IMG/VR virus record: IMGVR_UViG_3300031673_000171
Location: 1-40,902 of that record
Source: a virus
DNA: 40,902 nt
Strand: one strand, 5' to 3'
The position numbers were made by a program, and so were the translations under genes. The stretch's first letter is position 1. Each line of letters begins with the position of its first letter. Shown here piece by piece: positions 4,950 to 29,974 of the stretch. The notes under the pieces were generated by a model. The model had not been told where the DNA came from and searched no databases. It saw nothing but the letters and a program-made list of their open reading frames with translations.

Positions 4950-5753
4950 CTACGGCGCCGCCGCGCCTGCGTTGGCAGCGGCGCGCCTAGTGGCGATAGA
5001 TCGACTGAGCGAAACTCGCGTGGCAGCGCCCAAAGCGTCACGCTGCGCGAGACCGCGCACCAACACCTCGTGCGCCGGACTCAGGCCAGCCTGATTACGC
5101 ACCGAATCCCAATCTGGCATACCAGTGTCGAACCGCTGAAACGACAGCGACACTCGCGCACCGTATGGCTGCGCTGTGATCGGATGCCATGGGCCTTCCC
5201 ATTGGATGGTGACTTGCGTTATGTAGCCTCTGAGGGTCAAGAACGAACCGAACACCACCAGCACCATCGGCGGGTCGTAGCGCTTTAGTACCGGGATCTT
5301 GACCAAACCCTGATGGAATTTGGGGTCGAGCTTCGCTACGCGAGACTGTAATCCTCTGTTCAGTTCAGTGGCGTTCCGCTCTTTCGGAAAGCCCAACGCC
5401 TCAAGCCATCGGATGTTGTGTTCCATCTCCGACAGAAGATTGTTGATGTCGATGTTAGCTATGCGGTCCAAATCTGAAACGCGCGTGATGTTGCGCCCCG
5501 CGCGAAACACCAACTCAAGAGACATGATGCTCCAGTTGCCGCCGCGATACAAAGCGGCGCCCGGCTGCGGCATGCGGCTTCTCTGAGTCTCCTCGTAGGA
5601 GTCAACTTGGTAAGCCTGCGTGATGCTTCCGGGAAAGCTCTGAAAGTCGAGTCGCCCGTCGTCTGCATAACTCGGGCTGTCCTCAAGCACCAAAGCGCAC
5701 GGGACTACGTCAGAACGAATGCCGGGCAAGAAGTTAGTGGAAGGAAATGTCAC
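4950..5753 (-). CDS. Putative tail tube initiator / baseplate protein
   Basis: A 267-residue protein read from GTG at 5753, which forms a GTGA overlap with the tape measure stop; a TTG one codon upstream is less likely. It has two beta-rich halves. The first contains GNWSIMSLELVFRAGR. The second has ITQVTIQWEGPWHP, then QPYGARVSLSFQRFD, ending in an Ala-rich tail (RRAAANAGAAAP). Paired strands of this kind followed by a LysM protein recall XkdP-like and gp48/gp54-like tube initiators, which cap the tape measure and nucleate the tube. The position directly after the tape measure and before the LysM gene supports this, but the family assignment is an inference. Confidence 0.55.
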   Translation of the reverse strand: MTFPSTNFLPGIRSDVVPCALVLEDSPSYADDGRLDFQSFPGSITQAYQVDSYEETQRSRMPQPGAALYRGGNWSIMSLELVFRAGRNITRVSDLDRIANIDINNLLSEMEHNIRWLEALGFPKERNATELNRGLQSRVAKLDPKFHQGLVKIPVLKRYDPPMVLVVFGSFLTLRGYITQVTIQWEGPWHPITAQPYGARVSLSFQRFDTGMPDWDSVRNQAGLSPAHEVLVRGLAQRDALGAATRVSLSRSIATRRAAANAGAAAP

Positions 5754-7372
5754 CAAGCACCTACCCCGTCCATCCCAACGGCCATAGACAAACCACCATC
5801 GCCACCGGAAACAGACACCGCAGACGCACCACCATCAACGCGCAGCTTTCCGCCGAGCTTATCGTCTATGCGCTCCAGTACACGCTGAATCGCCTCTTGC
5901 CCAGGCATCTCGATCTTCGGCAGCAGCGGCAACAAAACACGCTCAACGGTAGACCGATTCAAAGGGAGAATCATCTCCGGCCCAGCTTCCCCAGCGATGA
6001 CCGGTCTGTTCACCATGGCTGCTCCGTCCGCCATCGGCGGGAGAGAAGGTGTAGCCACGCCGGTTGCACCGATCATCGGGAGTCTAGGCGCCGGAGTGTC
6101 AGGTGTGGAGAACAGGTTAAACGCTTTCTTCATGGTGTCGGCTGCGGCGCCGAACGGGTTCAGTAGCGTTTTCACCACCGACCCTGCGGGTGTGTCCAAC
6201 CATTTGCTGAAATTCGTGAACGGCGAAAAGATGTCGCTGAAGGCACCGCCCCACTCGGCTTTGCTCATTCCGAGTATCTGCTTGAACTGATCTGCGGCGT
6301 CCTTCAGCAAAGTCACCAAAGGTGGGAGCCACTCTTTGATGAATGGGATGACATCGTCGCGCAGGATCGGCACAATGGCCTTGAGCGTGGGGAGCATCAC
6401 GTCGCGCAGGATCGTGACTGCGATCTCGGTCAGATCCGGTATCAACGGCAGTAGTGCTCTTGCGATCTCCAAGAACGCCTTGAGCATTTCAGGCCCGACC
6501 TCCTTGAAAACCTTCCCAATCTCCATGAGAGCATCCATCATCATGGGAAGTGATTCGACTGCTAGATCAACTACCGCGTCAATCATGTCCTCTAAGAAAC
6601 CGCTGTCGATCAATTCGGTAACCCACGCACCGAACTGAACAGCTAGAAGCTCTGCGATCACCGTCAGCTTAGATATGTGCGGGAGTAGTTTCATTGCGAT
6701 GTTGGTCGCGATGATGTCTAGCGTCTGAGTCAGTGGGCCGAACGCGCTCTGGATGATAGCCGTGAACGACGTCATGGCAGGCATGAACGCTTCAGTGAAC
6801 ATCTTTATTAGCGGCTCAAACAAACGGAAGAGCGCGGCGAATGGTCCCAAGAATATGCCAGCCACGCCGCCAGCTAACTTGAAGGCGTTGGTGATCTTCT
6901 CGATGCTGATGAACTTCTGTAGAAAGTCGTTGACGACTGGAATTGCGGCGCGCGTGTGCTTGACGAGAACGGTGAATGCCTTGGCGTAATTCTTACCGTC
7001 GAAGGCGCGCTTCATCTCGTCGCCCAAAGCGGTGACCATGTTCAGTAACTTGGGGATCGTCTCGGCGCCTATGTCCGCCAACATCCCGGAGACATTCTTG
7101 ACCTTCTTACTCGTGTCGTCCCAATGCTTGACGAACCCGTCACCGAAGTCATGCCACTTGGCAGCGACCTTACCGAACATCCCACTGTAGAACTTCACCA
7201 ACTCCACTGGCACTTCTTCAGCCTTCGTGGTGAAGGTCTGAAGCACTACATCTGCTGCTTTTGCTGTCTTCTTGACTGCCTCGTCAATCAGTTTCTGGAC
7301 CTTGATGACGGGTCCGGTAGCCTCGTCCTCAATGGACAAGACCCAACCGATTGTCTCGAAACCGTCAGCCAC
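5750..7372 (-). CDS. Tail tape measure protein
   Basis: A 540-residue, largely helical protein starting at GTG (7372), which overlaps the preceding TAG as TAGTG. The C-terminal motif VIAGEAGPEMILPL (458-471) is a hallmark of many tape measure proteins. A hydrophobic stretch lies at about 163-185, and long amphipathic helices fill about 200-370. Tape measures fix tail length at about 0.15 nm per residue, which would give a tail near 80 nm, short for a phage with such long head genes. It lies downstream of chaperone-like genes and upstream of the tube-initiator-like gene, the standard order. The N-terminus (about 1-90) is charged and coiled-coil-like. The C-terminal 50 residues are Gly-rich and may be processed. 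Confidence 0.85.
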   Translation of the reverse strand: MADGFETIGWVLSIEDEATGPVIKVQKLIDEAVKKTAKAADVVLQTFTTKAEEVPVELVKFYSGMFGKVAAKWHDFGDGFVKHWDDTSKKVKNVSGMLADIGAETIPKLLNMVTALGDEMKRAFDGKNYAKAFTVLVKHTRAAIPVVNDFLQKFISIEKITNAFKLAGGVAGIFLGPFAALFRLFEPLIKMFTEAFMPAMTSFTAIIQSAFGPLTQTLDIIATNIAMKLLPHISKLTVIAELLAVQFGAWVTELIDSGFLEDMIDAVVDLAVESLPMMMDALMEIGKVFKEVGPEMLKAFLEIARALLPLIPDLTEIAVTILRDVMLPTLKAIVPILRDDVIPFIKEWLPPLVTLLKDAADQFKQILGMSKAEWGGAFSDIFSPFTNFSKWLDTPAGSVVKTLLNPFGAAADTMKKAFNLFSTPDTPAPRLPMIGATGVATPSLPPMADGAAMVNRPVIAGEAGPEMILPLNRSTVERVLLPLLPKIEMPGQEAIQRVLERIDDKLGGKLRVDGGASAVSVSGGDGGLSMAVGMDGVGAW

Positions 7373-23361: not shown

Positions 23362-23417
23362 GGGTAATAGCCTCCTGGGCACAGCATAGCAGATGCCAAC
23401 CGCGTTGCCGCTAGTTT

Positions 23418-24299
23418 CTACTGGGACGGGAAACCGTCAACAGGGCGACCTTCTAGGGCGATGGCGAAGACGTTGCTGGGACCGCCACGCCTACCTAAGT
23501 CCACGATGTGCCGTGCCCCGGCCTCGCGTACGAAGCGAATCCCCAGTCCGATCAGCGCGTCTTCAAACGAACGCCGCATGACGGATCCCTCGTTCATGCG
23601 CGACGTCTGCATGGGTGCGTGGCCGTGGTCATTACACTCGTTGAGGTACTGGTTCCAGCTACGCATTGTGCTCTCATCCTGGTTGACTGACTCGGACTTA
23701 ACACCGAACGGTGATCCGAGCAGGATCTTCATGTGTGACTTGCCCGCGATCTTGCGGCGATACCAACCGGGGTGCTTCGGGTACTTACCGTCAGGATGCG
23801 CGCCGATCCACTCGACAGTCTTGCCTAGAACCTTCTCGACGTCGGCATGGTTGTTGACTGAGGGTGCACCATGGTACTTGAGCAGGACGTGCGCGATTGC
23901 ACCGCTCATCTCGGCGTAGAAGCCCTTAGTCTTGAGACTGACGCCCGACTTGGCGATGACGAAGTCCTTGCTGGCCTTCGCACCGTCGTGACCCATGCCT
24001 ACTGACTTGAGTCCGTAGGGCTTCTTCTTCGCGAGCTTGACTACATCCGCTTCGGGGTCGCTGTCGATGTCGGCGGCTACCCAGAATGACGCGTTGTTGA
24101 CGATGTCAGACGGGCTCGTGATATTGACGTGACCACCGATGGGTTTGTAGGCAAGGTCAACAAGGTCAAATAGTTCCTGAGCCAGCACCTTGTTATTATT
24201 GAGGTCGGACTTCGATAGCTCGACCCACTTGCCGTGCTTACCCTTGAAGGTCTGAGCGTCCTCCAACACGGAGCAGCGGTAACGGTCCCAAGTTTTCAT
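23418..24299 (-). CDS. Putative packaged internal head protein with two capsid-targeting-like motifs
   Basis: A 293-residue protein starting at ATG 24299 in an ATGA overlap with the upstream gene. It begins MKTWDRYRCSVLE and has a second copy, MRSWNQYLNE, at 212-221. Both resemble the T4 internal protein III targeting sequence MKTYQEFIAE, which is cut after the Glu by gp21. Between the copies (about 14-205) is a compact domain with LFDLVDLAYKPIGGHVNI, WVAADIDSDPEADVV, GFYAEMSGAIAHVLLKYHG and GWYRRKIAGKSHMKILLG. I recall similar conserved segments in large-phage proteins; an acetyltransferase-like (GNAT) fold is possible but unproven. After the second motif lies a short domain ending at 293. 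Confidence 0.7.
   Translation of the reverse strand: MKTWDRYRCSVLEDAQTFKGKHGKWVELSKSDLNNNKVLAQELFDLVDLAYKPIGGHVNITSPSDIVNNASFWVAADIDSDPEADVVKLAKKKPYGLKSVGMGHDGAKASKDFVIAKSGVSLKTKGFYAEMSGAIAHVLLKYHGAPSVNNHADVEKVLGKTVEWIGAHPDGKYPKHPGWYRRKIAGKSHMKILLGSPFGVKSESVNQDESTMRSWNQYLNECNDHGHAPMQTSRMNEGSVMRRSFEDALIGLGIRFVREAGARHIVDLGRRGGPSNVFAIALEGRPVDGFPSQ
23637..23666 (-). other. Capsid-targeting-like motif copy (MRSWNQYLNE)
   Basis: Internal copy in the 293-residue protein, residues 212-221. It keeps the M-[KR]-[ST]-W-[DN]-x-Y-[LI]-x-E frame and ends in an L-x-E that suits a gp21-like protease, although the residue after Glu is Cys rather than A, G or S. Confidence 0.55.
24261..24299 (-). other. Capsid-targeting-like motif at the N-terminus of the 293-residue protein
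   Basis: Residues 1-13 (MKTWDRYRCSVLE) keep M-K-T-W-D-R-Y and end in V-L-E after a three-residue insertion relative to the other copies. The N-terminal location matches that of T4 internal protein targeting sequences. Confidence 0.55.
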
Positions 24300-25192
24300 C
24301 CGTGAAACATCAGTTCGGCATTGGACATGGCTTCACGCTGCCCGCCGGGCATCGGCTTCTTACCGTAGTAGCCGTCGTAGTACCACCGACCTTCATCCAC
24401 GTAGAAGTACATGCCCGTCCTGCTGTCTTCCAACGCGTTTCTGACGGTCCAGGTGTTCTCGGGGCTACCCATCCCGTTGTTGGGGCCGTAGTAGACGACC
24501 GACACATCACCCGTGTAGTCGAACACCTCCCGTTGACGCACCAGTGCGGCGCGTAACATGCTGGGATCCTCGTTAGCACCACCTGACCCGTACATCCGCA
24601 GCGCGTCTTTCTGCGCGTCCTTCGTACCATCCACAGCGGAAAGATACGCCTTGTCAGCGACCTGCTGGACTTCCTTCGGCATCCCCATACGCACCAGCTT
24701 GGCCTTCTCCTGCGGCCAAGACCCACGCACATAACTGGAGCTTTGCTCAGCAAGATAGCGATTCCAGGTCTTGATCGCGCTTTCGTCTGAATCTTTCTTC
24801 TTGCTGATGGCCTTGCTGATGGCCTTCTTCGCGACGTAGCCTGCGGCGGCTTTAACGACCTTGCGGCCCACTGGAGTTTTGGCAACAGCGACAGCGCCAC
24901 GGACCAGCGCACCGACTACCTCATCGGTGTGTTCACGCTCTGCGATGTATCGATCCCAGGTCTTCATGGAGCCTTCAGTCTGCTGCGCGAGCAGCTTCTC
25001 CAGCGCGCGCTTCGCTCGCTCAAGTTTGTGGTCTTTGCCGATGAGTTTGTGGTCCGCGTATATTTCCCACGCGTCTGGATCACCGACCGATGCTACTTGC
25101 TCAATGCGCCAACCGTCGTGCCGCCCGTCGCCCCCCTTGATGAACCAGGTTCGCCAACCACGCTTTGTGCCGTCTCTGAAAACCCAGCGCAT
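24296..25192 (-). CDS. Putative packaged internal head polyprotein with two capsid-targeting-like motifs
   Basis: A 298-residue protein from ATG 25192, chosen because GGAG lies 5 nt upstream; a GTG five codons earlier lacks a site. It has three parts divided by MKTWDRYIAE (residues 76-85) and IKTWNRYLAE (140-149). Part one is a small W-rich domain (GWRTWFIKGGDGRHDGWRIE). Part two is short and cationic (TPVGRKVVKAAAGYVAKKAI), possibly DNA- or membrane-binding. Part three has SVVYYGPNNGMGSPENTW and a Tyr-rich region. The first motif is 6/10 identical to the T4 internal protein III targeting sequence (MKTYQEFIAE). Cleavage at the Glu residues would release three head-internal peptides. The gene follows the major capsid gene. 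Confidence 0.7.
   Translation of the reverse strand: MRWVFRDGTKRGWRTWFIKGGDGRHDGWRIEQVASVGDPDAWEIYADHKLIGKDHKLERAKRALEKLLAQQTEGSMKTWDRYIAEREHTDEVVGALVRGAVAVAKTPVGRKVVKAAAGYVAKKAISKAISKKKDSDESAIKTWNRYLAEQSSSYVRGSWPQEKAKLVRMGMPKEVQQVADKAYLSAVDGTKDAQKDALRMYGSGGANEDPSMLRAALVRQREVFDYTGDVSVVYYGPNNGMGSPENTWTVRNALEDSRTGMYFYVDEGRWYYDGYYGKKPMPGGQREAMSNAELMFHG
24746..24775 (-). other. Capsid-targeting-like motif copy (IKTWNRYLAE)
   Basis: Internal copy in the 298-residue protein, residues 140-149, followed by Q-S-S-S. It ends in L-A-E, fitting the L-x-E part of the T4 prohead protease site. Confidence 0.6.
24938..24967 (-). other. Capsid-targeting-like motif copy (MKTWDRYIAE)
   Basis: The best copy, at residues 76-85, identical to MKTYQEFIAE at six of ten positions with aromatic residues kept at positions 4 and 7. 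A GAAGG about 4 nt before its ATG leaves open an internal translation start that would make this motif N-terminal. Confidence 0.65.
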
Positions 25193-25211
25193 CGTGTCTC
25201 CGTACACAAAC

Positions 25212-25333: not shown

Positions 25334-26791
25334 CTAGAGGTTGACGATCTGCAACGTCGCGATCATGTCAGGATCGATGACCTTGATGACGTACTCGGAC
25401 AGCAGCGCGAAGTCCTTGCGGAACCCACGAACGTGAACCGGCGCCTTGTAGAGCGGCACGTAGTCGCCCTTGATCGCCGCCGTCGAGACGAACTCCGGTC
25501 CACGGTAGGACAGAAGCGCCTGATCGCGCGGGTAGGTCGGATCCACGAACACGTCGATGTCGTGATCGGCGAGCCGCCCCAGGAAGCGCGGACCAGCGAT
25601 ACCATCGTTGGCGTAGCGCTGCCCAGCCCATCCGTCTTGGAACGCGATGGCGAACGCAATGGACGGATGAATGACCATGACGTTCGGGCGGGTGGTCTGC
25701 GTGGCCTCGTAGACGAGGTCTTGCAGACGAGTGATGAAGAGGTGGAGGGTCTTCAGGTGGTCACGGTACGACACGCCGGACGGAGCCGTGTTATCAAAGA
25801 TGACCGCGCCGCCCGTGCTCTGCTTGCGCAGTTCATTGACGACATGCTTGAAAATCTCCTGCGAGATGAGACGCGCACCGGCTTCGATGATCGTGGGCTC
25901 GGCGTCGATGCCGAAGTCGTTCATGAAGTCCATGACCGCCTGCTGCGACCACGAAGCGCCCAGGGCACGCGGACGCGCCTCGACGTTCTCGGCCCGCAAG
26001 TGGATGCCGTACTCAGGAAGCTGAAGTGCGGCTTCGATGTTGAAGACGTACTTCACGCGAATGGTGTCGGAGGTCGCCGCAGCGAATCGGACACTCACGG
26101 TGCGCGAGATGTAGTCGATGGTGTTGGTGACACCACCGCCAGGAGCGCCGACGTCGCCGACGAGCAGACCGTTGCGGTTGTCCCGCACGACCAGACTGCC
26201 ATCGGTGATCTCCAGAGTTCCGGGGATGACCGGACCGTAGCCCAGGACGACCGGGCTGTAGTCTGTCGAACCAGCCGAACCGAACGGCTCGTCATCGACC
26301 TTCTCCGAAGAGAAGTTCTCGCTACCACGGAACCCGTTCAGAGCATCGAACATGATGGCGCGGTCGGGCAAGTTGCCCTTGGCGCGCTCGGAGACGACAT
26401 CCAGGTAGTGGATGCGACCGAGACGATTGCTCATCGGCTGGACGCTGATGACTCGGTCGACGATGTCGTCAGCCTGCGCCGAGGCGATGAGCGCGAGCCC
26501 GTTCTTGACCCAGGCGGGCAGGCTCGCGCGAGAGGTCTCGTCGATGAGCCCCTTGCCGAACATATCCATCGTCTTGTTGACGAAGTTCTCCATGAGGATT
26601 GCGCACTTGGTAGCGCGCAGCGGGTCGAGACCGTTTCCCGTCTCCAGAATCTCAAGCGGATTTAGCGCCTTGTCGATTCCGAGCGTCGGAAGGGTGAAAT
26701 TCTGGAAACGGCGAACGCGGTCGCGGTGCTTGCGCACCATGGCCTCTTGAATGGAATTCGCCTGCTGCTGGTGCTCTTTCGATGCGAGCAT
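25334..26791 (-). CDS. Major capsid protein, gp23-like (HK97 fold)
   Basis: A 485-residue protein starting at ATG 26791 after AGGAGAG. It resembles T4-type gp23: the region FQNFTLPTLGIDKALNPLEI, the core segment DRVISVQPMSNRLGRIHYLD, and the C-terminal PNVMVIHPSIAFAIAFQDGW and DIDVFVDPTYPRDQALLSYR. SIQE16|A17 fits the L/I-x-E|A cut of the gp21 protease, predicting a short 16-residue propeptide. An insertion at about 190-250 (GTLEITDGSLVVRD, IDYISR) is the same beta module that occurs in the sheath. In T4 gp23 an insertion domain braces neighbouring subunits, so this module may do so here. A strong terminator follows. Confidence 0.92.
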   Translation of the reverse strand: MLASKEHQQQANSIQEAMVRKHRDRVRRFQNFTLPTLGIDKALNPLEILETGNGLDPLRATKCAILMENFVNKTMDMFGKGLIDETSRASLPAWVKNGLALIASAQADDIVDRVISVQPMSNRLGRIHYLDVVSERAKGNLPDRAIMFDALNGFRGSENFSSEKVDDEPFGSAGSTDYSPVVLGYGPVIPGTLEITDGSLVVRDNRNGLLVGDVGAPGGGVTNTIDYISRTVSVRFAAATSDTIRVKYVFNIEAALQLPEYGIHLRAENVEARPRALGASWSQQAVMDFMNDFGIDAEPTIIEAGARLISQEIFKHVVNELRKQSTGGAVIFDNTAPSGVSYRDHLKTLHLFITRLQDLVYEATQTTRPNVMVIHPSIAFAIAFQDGWAGQRYANDGIAGPRFLGRLADHDIDVFVDPTYPRDQALLSYRGPEFVSTAAIKGDYVPLYKAPVHVRGFRKDFALLSEYVIKVIDPDMIATLQIVNL

Positions 26792-26830: not shown

Positions 26831-29800
26831 TTACGCGTTGCTACGACGACGACGGCGTGCTGCAGCCACACGGCTAGCCACGTTGCCTGATCCGATGTTG
26901 CCCGTCCGTCCCAGACCCTCTGAGATGGGCGAAGAAGACTCATTGATGCTAGTCGGCACGTTGCGTGCCTCCGTGCTGTCCACGGCGTTCTGTCCGCGAC
27001 GATTGAACGTCTGCGACTCCGCACGCTCGACGAGCGGCGCTGGCTGCGGCGCGGGCTGCGCCTGCTCCACCAACGTGAGTAGCATCTGGGCCTCGTTGTG
27101 AAGCTCCTCGCGCGACTCGCACGTCCTCAGCCTCTGGGCGGCGAACTTTAGTTCTGGATGCTGCTCCATGATGCGGGTTCGGTCAGCGACCAAAGTCTCA
27201 CGCTCGTGAGACTCGCGCAACGCGCTGATGGCCTCGTGCTGCTCCTGCACGGTGTCCTCGTAGCGCGCAAGCTCATCCTCCATGAAGGTGACCTTGCTGC
27301 GTAGGTGCGCGTTCTCCTCGCGGATACGAGCGATCTCGCGGAAGCTGGTGCTCTCGACGTACTCGCCGTCGCCCTCTTCGGACGCATCGTCGTAGTCGCC
27401 TGGCTCCTGGCCGTCGCCGTCCTGCCCGCGATCTCCCGGCTCGTTCATCGTCTTCATCGAGTACTCAGGGCCTTCTTTGCCCTTCCAACTGTCGCCCTTC
27501 GTGACGACACCGCTGTCACCGCCGTGGCGAGCAGGTAGATCGTCTTCGAAGACGGGTGCGCGGAAGACTTCGCCAGCCTTGTCACGCCAGTACTTCTCAT
27601 GCATCGTGCTCACCTTGCCTCTGCCTCTGCCTCTTGACTCGGCCATGTAGATGGTCGAACCGTTGCGGTCGCGGACACCCTCAAGGATGCCCTGCTTGTC
27701 GTAGTACTCGTATGCGACCGGTTCATCACTCTCATTGAACCAGACGCGCACCGCGCCGACCAGCTTCTTGTTCTCGCTGATGCGGTTGAAGGTGTGGAAG
27801 TAGGTGCGGCTTTCCTTGCGGCTCTTCGTGCGTGAGCGCTTGTTGTCGAGCTTCTGCTTCTTCGTGAGCACGCGCTTCTTGCTGTCACCCTTGGGGATCG
27901 AGCGGTCGTTGTCCACGGCGTTGTTGTGTCGGAACGTCTTTTGGTACTCGGTGTTTGGGGCGTCTTTGCTGAACGCCTTCGCGAACATCGCATTGCTCGC
28001 CGTGCTGCCGCCATTTGGTCCCTTGCCGCCGAGTTTGGCTTCGCCCATACGGCGACCTTTGCTGTAGCCCACGATGTTCTCCATTTCGTAGTCGTCGTCA
28101 TCGTCAGCGTAGTCGTCGTCAGCGTAGTCGTCGTCGTCGTCGCCCATGTCGTCGCCCATGTCGTCGCCGTCGTAGTCGACGCCGCTCTCGAAGTCGCCGT
28201 CTTCTTCGTCGTTGAGTCTCAACTCGTCAACGTCGTCATCGCCTTCGTAATCGTAGTCGATGGGATCGCCGTACTCTTCTTCATCTTCTTCCTCGTTGAC
28301 GTCGAGGTCGAGGTCGAGGTCTTCTGGATCTTCTAGATTCGCAGTCGGACTGATGCCGTCCGGCTCGTCATCATCGTCGGGAACCGTGTCGCCGCCCGCC
28401 ATGCTGCCGCCCGCGCTCTTGTCAGGTGCGTACTCAGAGAAAATGCGTCGTCTACGCTTGGTGATGCCCATGGTGTTCTCCGTGATGACTTTACCAGCGG
28501 ACACACGTCCGACGTGCTCGGCCTGCATCTTCTGAATCCCCTTCGCGGTAAGGACCCGGCATACGTGTGCCTTGGCCTGCTCACCGTCTTCATAGCTCGT
28601 ATAGACCGTCAGCTTGTCGTCGCTGAGTTTGGTGACGTGGAACCCTGCCTTCTGCAGAGCAGACACCGCCGCCTCACACTCGGCCTTGCTGCCAGCTTCC
28701 AACTCTAACATCGTACCGCTGTAGGGCATCGACCCGAGTTGTTTCCACTCCTCTTGGAGCGTGCGCAGCCATGGCTTGAACTTGGAGTTCGCCTCGATGA
28801 TTGCCTTGTGCCGCGCTTCAGTCGACTCGAATGAGAGCACGATCCTTGGTGTGCGCGACGGCTGGTGCGGCATCATGCCTGCCATGCCGGAAATGTTGGG
28901 CATGTAGGACGGCGCGGCGACGGCTTTGAGTTCGGCGCCTTCTTTGGCGATGGCGTTGGATGCGGCGGCGCTCTGCTGCGCTGAGTAGTGCCCACTCGCG
29001 AGGATCAGCTTGTAGTGGTTCTCGGCAACATGCTGCGCGGCGTCCCGAGTTGGGATGTGTGACGCGAGTCGCGAGGGTGCGAGGTTGTGTGGATGCAGCC
29101 ACACCTCCCACTGACCAGCCGTACCCTGATACGCGCGATAGTGCGCGCTGCCGTCCTCGAAAGCCAAGAGGTACCTGCTGAAGCCGCTGGGAGGTACCTC
29201 TGACTCAGTGATCGCACACTTGCACACACCACCCTTGCAGTCGACCTGTGACTCACGCACCGCGCGCAAACCATCAGCTTCGGCAAGTTGGCGCGCCATA
29301 GTGATGTCACCGCCTGCGGACTCCACCAGCGCCTTGACATAGGCATCAATGTTCTCGCGCAGATTGCGCGCGCGGACTTCAGCACCGGGAGTCGACTCGT
29401 CGATGACGCAGTCCCATGTGATAGGGTCGAAGTCGAGTTGAACTTCGTCAACGCCGTTCTTATGTTGCACCGAACCGTTGCCGCGCGAGCTTAGTCCGAA
29501 GCGAACGCCATCACGAATGTAGGACTCGACAAGGCGCCCAGGTGGCGTCGACAACGTCTCAAAGACGATCCACACCTCGCCGTTGTCATCGGGCGAGAAC
29601 GCCTCAGTCACAACGATGGCGGCGAGCGGCATCTTGGACTTGCCGTCTTCTGGGTGTTCCAGATGACCAATGACCCCACGGCCTCCGATCTTATTCTGGA
29701 ATTCCGCGCCTTCGCGAAGATGCTGCTCCCACACCTCGCGCGGGTAGATACGCCCGTTGCGGTTCTTGACTTCGGTGTGTTGCGCCTTCGCGCGAACGCG

Positions 29801-29974
29801 ATAGCGCCCGTTCTCAAGCTCCTCGATGAAGCCCTTGCCGCGCGTTTGCTTCTCAGCAAGAGCGCGCGGCTCTACCGGCTCAGGCCCGGCCTTCTCTGTG
29901 ATGAGAGTGAAGACGTCGTAGGGAATGCCGTCAGCAGTCTCACGAAGTGCAGCGGCGGTAGCGACGATGGTCAT
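26831..29974 (-). CDS. Prohead protease (gp21-like) fused to scaffold-like tail
   Basis: A 1047-residue protein whose ATG follows a TAG directly. Residues of about 60-215 are a T4 gp21-type serine protease: NRNGRIYPREVWEQ, GVIGHLEHPEDG (His104 and His107 are the candidates), TPPGRLVESYIRDGVRFG then LSSRG (Ser162/Ser163), and a closing SxPGA-like STPGAE. Residues of about 250-500 hold extra alpha/beta domains. Residues 532-632 are strikingly acidic (long D/E runs). A basic stretch lies at 695-725. Residues of about 876-970 form a coiled coil (EIARIREENAHLRSKVTFME), as in scaffold gp22, and the end is Arg-rich. About ten L/I-x-E|A/G/S sites suggest self-processing. The major capsid gene follows after 39 nt. 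Confidence 0.88.
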   Translation of the reverse strand: MTIVATAAALRETADGIPYDVFTLITEKAGPEPVEPRALAEKQTRGKGFIEELENGRYRVRAKAQHTEVKNRNGRIYPREVWEQHLREGAEFQNKIGGRGVIGHLEHPEDGKSKMPLAAIVVTEAFSPDDNGEVWIVFETLSTPPGRLVESYIRDGVRFGLSSRGNGSVQHKNGVDEVQLDFDPITWDCVIDESTPGAEVRARNLRENIDAYVKALVESAGGDITMARQLAEADGLRAVRESQVDCKGGVCKCAITESEVPPSGFSRYLLAFEDGSAHYRAYQGTAGQWEVWLHPHNLAPSRLASHIPTRDAAQHVAENHYKLILASGHYSAQQSAAASNAIAKEGAELKAVAAPSYMPNISGMAGMMPHQPSRTPRIVLSFESTEARHKAIIEANSKFKPWLRTLQEEWKQLGSMPYSGTMLELEAGSKAECEAAVSALQKAGFHVTKLSDDKLTVYTSYEDGEQAKAHVCRVLTAKGIQKMQAEHVGRVSAGKVITENTMGITKRRRRIFSEYAPDKSAGGSMAGGDTVPDDDDEPDGISPTANLEDPEDLDLDLDVNEEEDEEEYGDPIDYDYEGDDDVDELRLNDEEDGDFESGVDYDGDDMGDDMGDDDDDYADDDYADDDDDYEMENIVGYSKGRRMGEAKLGGKGPNGGSTASNAMFAKAFSKDAPNTEYQKTFRHNNAVDNDRSIPKGDSKKRVLTKKQKLDNKRSRTKSRKESRTYFHTFNRISENKKLVGAVRVWFNESDEPVAYEYYDKQGILEGVRDRNGSTIYMAESRGRGRGKVSTMHEKYWRDKAGEVFRAPVFEDDLPARHGGDSGVVTKGDSWKGKEGPEYSMKTMNEPGDRGQDGDGQEPGDYDDASEEGDGEYVESTSFREIARIREENAHLRSKVTFMEDELARYEDTVQEQHEAISALRESHERETLVADRTRIMEQHPELKFAAQRLRTCESREELHNEAQMLLTLVEQAQPAPQPAPLVERAESQTFNRRGQNAVDSTEARNVPTSINESSSPISEGLGRTGNIGSGNVASRVAAARRRRRSNA

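Follow-up and report, generated by a model that had tools for sequence, protein, structure and literature searches.

Copies of a motif resembling the T4 capsid targeting sequence between the modules of two putative head cargo proteins of a phage with a gp23-like capsid

The window analysed here is a stretch of 40,902 nt of viral DNA (IMG/VR record IMGVR_UViG_3300031673_000171, positions 1 to 40,902). A gp23-like capsid gene and an S77 protease gene are adjacent in it, both upstream of two ORFs, cargo genes 1 and 2, which overlap in an ATGA shared by the start of gene 2 and the stop of gene 1 (Table 1). Both cargo genes and all four copies of a short motif are on the minus strand, with the copies in frame. 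Copies 1, 2 and 4 are internal and copy 3 is N-terminal, and the stretches around them are named modules A to E. These positions and frames agree with an earlier note on this DNA, which had claimed four copies, several of them internal, in two adjacent genes just downstream of the capsid gene. Pfam and PHROG searches with both cargo genes gave no significant match. The whole of cargo gene 1 was found only in identical contigs. Module A has no relatives among the fetched phage proteins and no similarity to the protease-scaffold fusion, and the AF2 single-sequence model of cargo gene 1 (module C) is unreliable (pLDDT 46).

Table 1. Position of the genes, modules and motif copies in the window.
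Feature	Position	Strand	Description
Replaced stretch	23410..23593	-	wholly replaced compared with IMGVR_UViG_3300031565_000409; end of cargo gene 2 after copy 4; flanks 99.8-99.9% identical
Cargo gene 2	23418..24299	-	ORF, 293 aa; CTS3 - module D - CTS4 - module E
Module E	23421..23636	-	residues 222-293 of cargo gene 2; from about residue 236 replaced in near-identical contig L011
Motif copy 4, MRSWNQYLNE	23637..23666	-	residues 212-221 of cargo gene 2; internal; first codon ATG
Module D	23667..24260	-	residues 14-211 of cargo gene 2; GNAT-like domain (predicted), conserved K-x-x-G-x-G-H-D
Motif copy 3, MKTWDRYRCSVLE	24261..24299	-	residues 1-13 of cargo gene 2; N-terminal; weak V-L-E site
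Cargo gene 1	24296..25207	-	ORF, 303 aa, GTG start; module A - CTS1 - module B - CTS2 - module C
Module C	24299..24745	-	residues 155-303 of cargo gene 1
Motif copy 2, IKTWNRYLAE	24746..24775	-	residues 145-154 of cargo gene 1; internal; first codon ATC, not ATG
Module B	24776..24937	-	residues 91-144 of cargo gene 1; very basic, pI 10.0
Motif copy 1, MKTWDRYIAE	24938..24967	-	residues 81-90 of cargo gene 1; internal; first codon ATG
Module A	24968..25207	-	residues 1-80 of cargo gene 1; own N-terminus without CTS
Major capsid protein, gp23-like	25334..26791	-	Pfam Gp23, E=1.2e-22
Capsid-protein I-Q-E before Ala-17	26744..26752	-	residues 14-17 are I-Q-E-A; likely site of prohead-protease cleavage, equivalent in type to the motif ends
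Prohead protease (S77) and scaffold fusion	26831..29974	-	1047 aa; Pfam Peptidase_S77, E=1.1e-13; PHROG protease, 4e-23; weak scaffold match

The pattern [MILV][KR][TS]W[DN].[YF] has exactly these four matches in the six frames of the 40.9-kb window, and the search for further copies that the earlier note had called for yielded no other strict match. The slightly stricter pattern [MILV][KR][TS]W[DN][RQ]Y never occurred in 300 shuffles of the 31 window proteins, and two or more occurrences of [KR][TS]W..Y were obtained in only 2 of 20,000 shuffles of both cargo genes. The copies differ in synonymous codons for Arg (CGA/CGC/CGT), Lys (AAG/AAA), Thr (ACC/ACT) and Ala (GCA/GCT), which indicates conservation at the protein level, not of the DNA, and hence selection on the protein. 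None of 40 other genes in the 40.9 kb of known sequence begins with a comparable motif.

The capsid targeting sequence (CTS) of the T4 internal protein IPIII directs this protein into the prohead and is cut after its Glu by gp21. The sequence read for T4 ipIII from NC_000866 is MKTYQEFIAE, and the claim that the best window copy shares six of its ten residues and keeps both aromatic positions is correct against it. Residues 4 and 7 of the T4 tag act in targeting, residues 8 and 10 in processing (PMC9026906). All four window copies have W4 and Y7. Copies 1, 2 and 4 end in [LI]-x-E at positions 8-10 and thus keep W4, Y7, I/L8 and E10 together. Copy 3 has W4 and Y7 followed by a three-residue insertion and then V-L-E at 11-13, so that the [LI]-x-E end of the consensus K-T-W-[DN]-R-Y-[LI]-x-E, formerly proposed for the four copies, holds for copies 1, 2 and 4 and not for copy 3. 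It is also the only copy at an N-terminus, where the relatives of module D carry theirs. We consider it highly probable that the four-copy motif is a T4-type CTS, a reading well supported by the comparisons that follow.

The window phage has both an S77/gp21-type prohead protease, as the Pfam Peptidase_S77 match confirms for the gp21-like protease claimed earlier, and a gp23-type capsid protein. An I-[QA]-E-[AG] sequence near the N-terminus of the capsid protein is present in the window and in three of four relatives (4 of 5 family members). The three relatives with a capsid protein 84-86% identical to that of the window keep it, and the one with 69% identity does not. This conserved I-x-E-A/G suggests that the window protease cuts after [IL]-x-E like gp21, the same cleavage rule as that of the motif ends. 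Residues 19-27 of the protease-scaffold fusion are YDVFTLITE (YGVRTLLTE in contig L013) and could serve for autocleavage or targeting in the manner of LIE-9 of T4 gp21; FHTFNRISE at residues 726-734 is a weaker CTS-like match in mid-protein. The prohead protease gene of the relative L013 (positions 5911-6953) carries an in-frame intein (Hint and LAGLIDADG, about 347 codons) after ...HPGDGK.

In the four relatives (capsid protein 84-86% and 69% identical), the interval from the capsid gene to the next conserved gene contains neither cargo gene, and the cargo genes are therefore accessory. In relatives this spot holds other small unrelated genes (L012:1725-2027, L015:2451-3353) and is an accessory-gene hot spot. 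Contig IMGVR_UViG_3300031565_000409 is identical to the window over 17.3 kb save four substitutions and small indels, and has a different coding sequence of nearly equal length in place of the end of cargo gene 2. Two of the four substitutions adjoin the junction of the replacement. Searches with the replaced module E gave no relatives beyond its own contig. The replacement after copy 4 is as expected of a cargo module that can be swapped. Unrelated modules downstream of different copies, exchange after copy 4 and absence of the genes from relatives are together the behaviour of exchangeable cargo.

Module D is the only module for which separate-gene relatives were found, a question that the earlier note had raised for the modules in general; searches found none for modules A, B, C and E. 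Its AF2 model (pLDDT 79.7, pTM 0.76) matches nearly exclusively GNAT acetyltransferases among PDB structures in Foldseek (best E 8.7e-4, TM about 0.4-0.5). The alignment of relatives reveals K-x-x-G-x-G-H-D in nearly all of them, with Lys replacing the Gln/Arg of the GNAT acetyl-CoA loop [QR]-x-x-G-x-[GA]. There is no sequence match of module D to GNAT Pfam or PDB families, and for this reason the fold predicted for it is called GNAT-like only.

Relatives of module D were retrieved by tblastn and from IMG/VR in the 735-kb LR756501, the 635-kb LR745206, Tenacibaculum phage pT24 and 17 further IMG/VR contigs. An S77-like protease accompanies them in LR756501, LR745206 and pT24 (3/3) and, among the fragmentary IMG/VR records, in 10 of 17. 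The module D relatives begin with MKSFKQFLIE, MVNISEYLEE, MIKLIDLLLE, MSRIKLSELLNE, MNYIKLFEDF, MKNRYIASYKIFESDE and MVMKHLKAFEEYE, with MRATEFAKNTWH as the exception. Every lineage but one thus has its own CTS-like N-terminus; two types, MNYIKLFEDF and MKHLKAFEEYE, match more loosely and depart from the exact 4/7/8/10 spacing. In several relatives the binding part varies and [LI]-x-E is kept. Across lineages, domain D is constant and the putative tag changes with the lineage. The outcome that the earlier note had named as refuting its reading, a conserved domain without the motif, was encountered among module D relatives only in contig L115, where the domain is present behind a start that is not clearly CTS-like. 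An esterase or alpha-beta-hydrolase-like gene lies beside the module D gene in three lineages (L003, pT24 056; L004:8493-8984; L102:2413-2896), and the module D fold also occurs in the BFVD match A0A8S5PWR1 (406 aa), which is named esterase.

These observations bear on a reading in which the motif is a short amphipathic helix through which the two proteins, minor components of the structure, dock to scaffold or capsid, and not a removable tag. The internal position of the copies, the absence of a good cleavage site in copy 3 and the helix predicted for the copies in a low-confidence model agree with an uncut docking motif. However, three of four copies end exactly in the protease consensus, relatives retain [LI]-x-E when the binding part varies, and the module replacement points to cargo rather than to structure, which makes this reading improbable compared with a CTS.

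The CTS reading was further examined at genome scale. ORFs, taken as the longest from ATG, were scored for [YFW]xx[YFW][LIVM]xE within their first residues and compared with shuffles. The pattern is found in 54 of 893 ORFs of LR756501 (shuffled mean 2.8, maximum 9), in 27 of 855 in LR745206 (shuffled 2.5), in 7/152 of contig G002 (0.3) and in 9/208 of contig G009 (0.7). Phage pT24 has the aliphatic form [ILV]xxY[LI]xE in 11 of 271 ORFs (shuffled 0.4); CTS-like starts in this phage include MVNISEYLEE (BPT24_057), MRDIRDYIKE, MRDITHYIKE and MLGLERYIIE. The T4 positive control gave three matches, among them the annotated ipII and ipIII. The negative controls SPO1 (0/183), phage G (2/488) and phiKZ (0/175, 160 kb tested), none of which has a Pfam S77 match, are not enriched. 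Enrichment is not clear in the smaller contigs G014 (1/161) and G016 (2/119) or in KVP40 (3/366). With a matrix trained on LR756501 N-termini, the T4 IPIII tag reaches 20.9 bits and 171 N-termini are marked where about 17 are expected; in LR745206 a trained matrix marks 144 where about 13 are expected. Fifty-six CTS-like LR756501 proteins share only 7% column identity, with the consensus xxxxYxxFxNE. The proteins that carry such N-termini in LR756501 and LR745206 are unrelated; PPK2, CoaE, radical SAM and methyltransferase domains are found among them, also within the set of 56. In contig G002 (L131-L132, G002:C1:20891-24782, minus strand), six tandem genes start with MKEL..F[RK].FL.E and have unrelated bodies; this array lies about 10 kb from a module D relative and resembles a T4-style array of internal-protein genes.

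Two further features of LR756501 were noted. The motif DPYGEExW recurs soon after the CTS-like start of many small proteins (ORFs near 5129, 132554, 132879, 338418 and 474650-476339) and also inside a 669-aa fusion. The adjacent ORFs 606636-607503 and 607495-607813 encode proteins with CTS-like sequences at their end, not at their start (LKNYNDFLRNV, IKTFESFINDKA).

The enrichment also weighs on the idea that the copies are duplications within a protein of other function whose likeness to the T4 CTS is coincidental. An IMG/VR-wide DNA scan for KTW[..]RY..E retrieved only the phage's own contigs and two spurious out-of-context matches in a 12-residue frame, and this privacy of the letters KTWDRY would suit unrelated repeats. 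Such repeats are nevertheless very improbable in view of the synonymous divergence of the copies, their exact match at the mapped CTS positions, the CTS-like N-termini of module D relatives, and the N-terminal enrichment with its controls.

The presence of putative CTS copies between modules leads to the proposal that both genes encode small polyproteins. Outside the window phage, tagged modules are also found fused. In LR756501 a 669-aa ORF has an internal IKKYKGFLNEN at residue 250. Its N-terminal half is phosphoribosyltransferase-like (Pfam 4e-5, below cut-off) and has a separate neighbouring paralog (E 5e-34); its C-terminal half matches separate proteins (E 2e-10, 3e-7), most with the CTS-like start MIK.[FY]. 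In contig L118, a relative of module D is fused to a GH19 glycosidase, with L-D-E in between. Head targeting, as interpreted in the earlier note, is strongly supported by comparison, and the polyprotein part of that interpretation is plausible only, by way of these parallel fusions.

Alternatively, the genes could be nested, the ATG of copies 1 and 4 starting shorter proteins with an N-terminal CTS and the long ORFs being read-through products or recent fusions, so that no internal cutting would be required. In favour of this, ATG is the first codon of three of the four copies, and the ATC of the remaining one differs from it by a single base. Copies 1, 2 and 4 are preceded at 4 nt by weak purine stretches (GAAGG, GAAAG, GAGAG), and one internal copy in LR756501 has an ATG a few residues upstream. 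The stretches are, however, poor Shine-Dalgarno sequences compared with the better GGAG/AGGAG of the genome, copy 2 does not begin with a start codon, the residues leading up to the copies, [DQ][DT]E[SG][AST], are linker-like and the ORFs are open throughout. Nested genes are in our opinion unlikely. A Shine-Dalgarno sequence and ATG at every copy were rejected as the main explanation, since the sites are too weak and copy 2 lacks the ATG. If the motif is a CTS, a polyprotein cut at its internal copies is plausible and, in our analysis, somewhat favoured.

The best explanation of the whole, which we regard as probable, is that the two genes encode CTS-loaded polyproteins cut into modules by the S77 protease; the motif with its positions and context, its comparative conservation and the module replacement are what we observe, and packaging, cleavage, ejection and acetyltransferase activity are what we infer. 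During prohead assembly, the motif's two aromatic residues would bind the core, for which the scaffold part of the 1047-aa protein is the presumed candidate, and the cargo would be drawn in ahead of closure of the gp23-like shell. Cleavage after the motif Glu by the S77 protease would follow. Each cargo gene would give a small polyprotein, loaded as a complete chain through one or more of its tags, and a cut at every copy would free modules A to E for ejection together with the DNA. A possible role for module D is early acetylation of a host target, comparable to the ADP-ribosylation of RNA polymerase by T4 Alt.

A more general proposal, to which we give slightly less than even credence, is that some phages load their heads with polyproteins alternating tags and cargo modules, the tag serving for loading, for release and as a joint for effector swaps. 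The dozens of tagged proteins, metabolic enzymes included, in the 735- and 635-kb relatives suggest that huge-phage heads may deliver a large injected proteome. If true, the T4 CTS, so far a feature of few proteins in a single phage group, would widen into a packaging code readable from sequence in many large phages, it would exist in a polyprotein form, and injected proteins could be predicted from genomes. The prediction is directly testable in the cultured phage pT24. A literature search found no published account of such tags in huge phages, which is not proof of absence.

Module D resembles GNAT acetyltransferases, including phage Rac and the GNAT domains of injected polyvalent proteins, in its predicted fold; it differs by having no sequence match to GNAT families, and its activity is predicted at most. 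GNAT domains are known in injected phage proteins (PMC7824862). The inner-body and ejection proteins of phiKZ and SPN3US are likewise packaged in large number and processed by a distant gp21-type protease, with several cut sites per propeptide (PMC5694885), but they have long propeptides (>100 residues) and S/A/G-x-E sites, and the 160 kb of phiKZ tested are not enriched in CTS-like N-termini. In phage P1, the N-terminal signal of DarB suffices to load a reporter into the head (PMC9024508), whereas the Dar proteins have no N-terminal consensus and the DarB signal is not described as T4-like in sequence. The closest likeness is to T4 IPI, IPII, IPIII and Alt, with their 10-residue tag, aromatics at 4 and 7, [LI] at 8 and Glu at 10 (PMC9026906), their S77 protease gp21, gp23 capsid and accessory variable cargo. 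The cargo sequences are unrelated to those of T4, and protease and scaffold are fused in the window phage. T4 proteins have a single N-terminal CTS, whereas the window copies lie between modules of one ORF, where targeting is putative; a tag functional between modules would help to load several proteins together.
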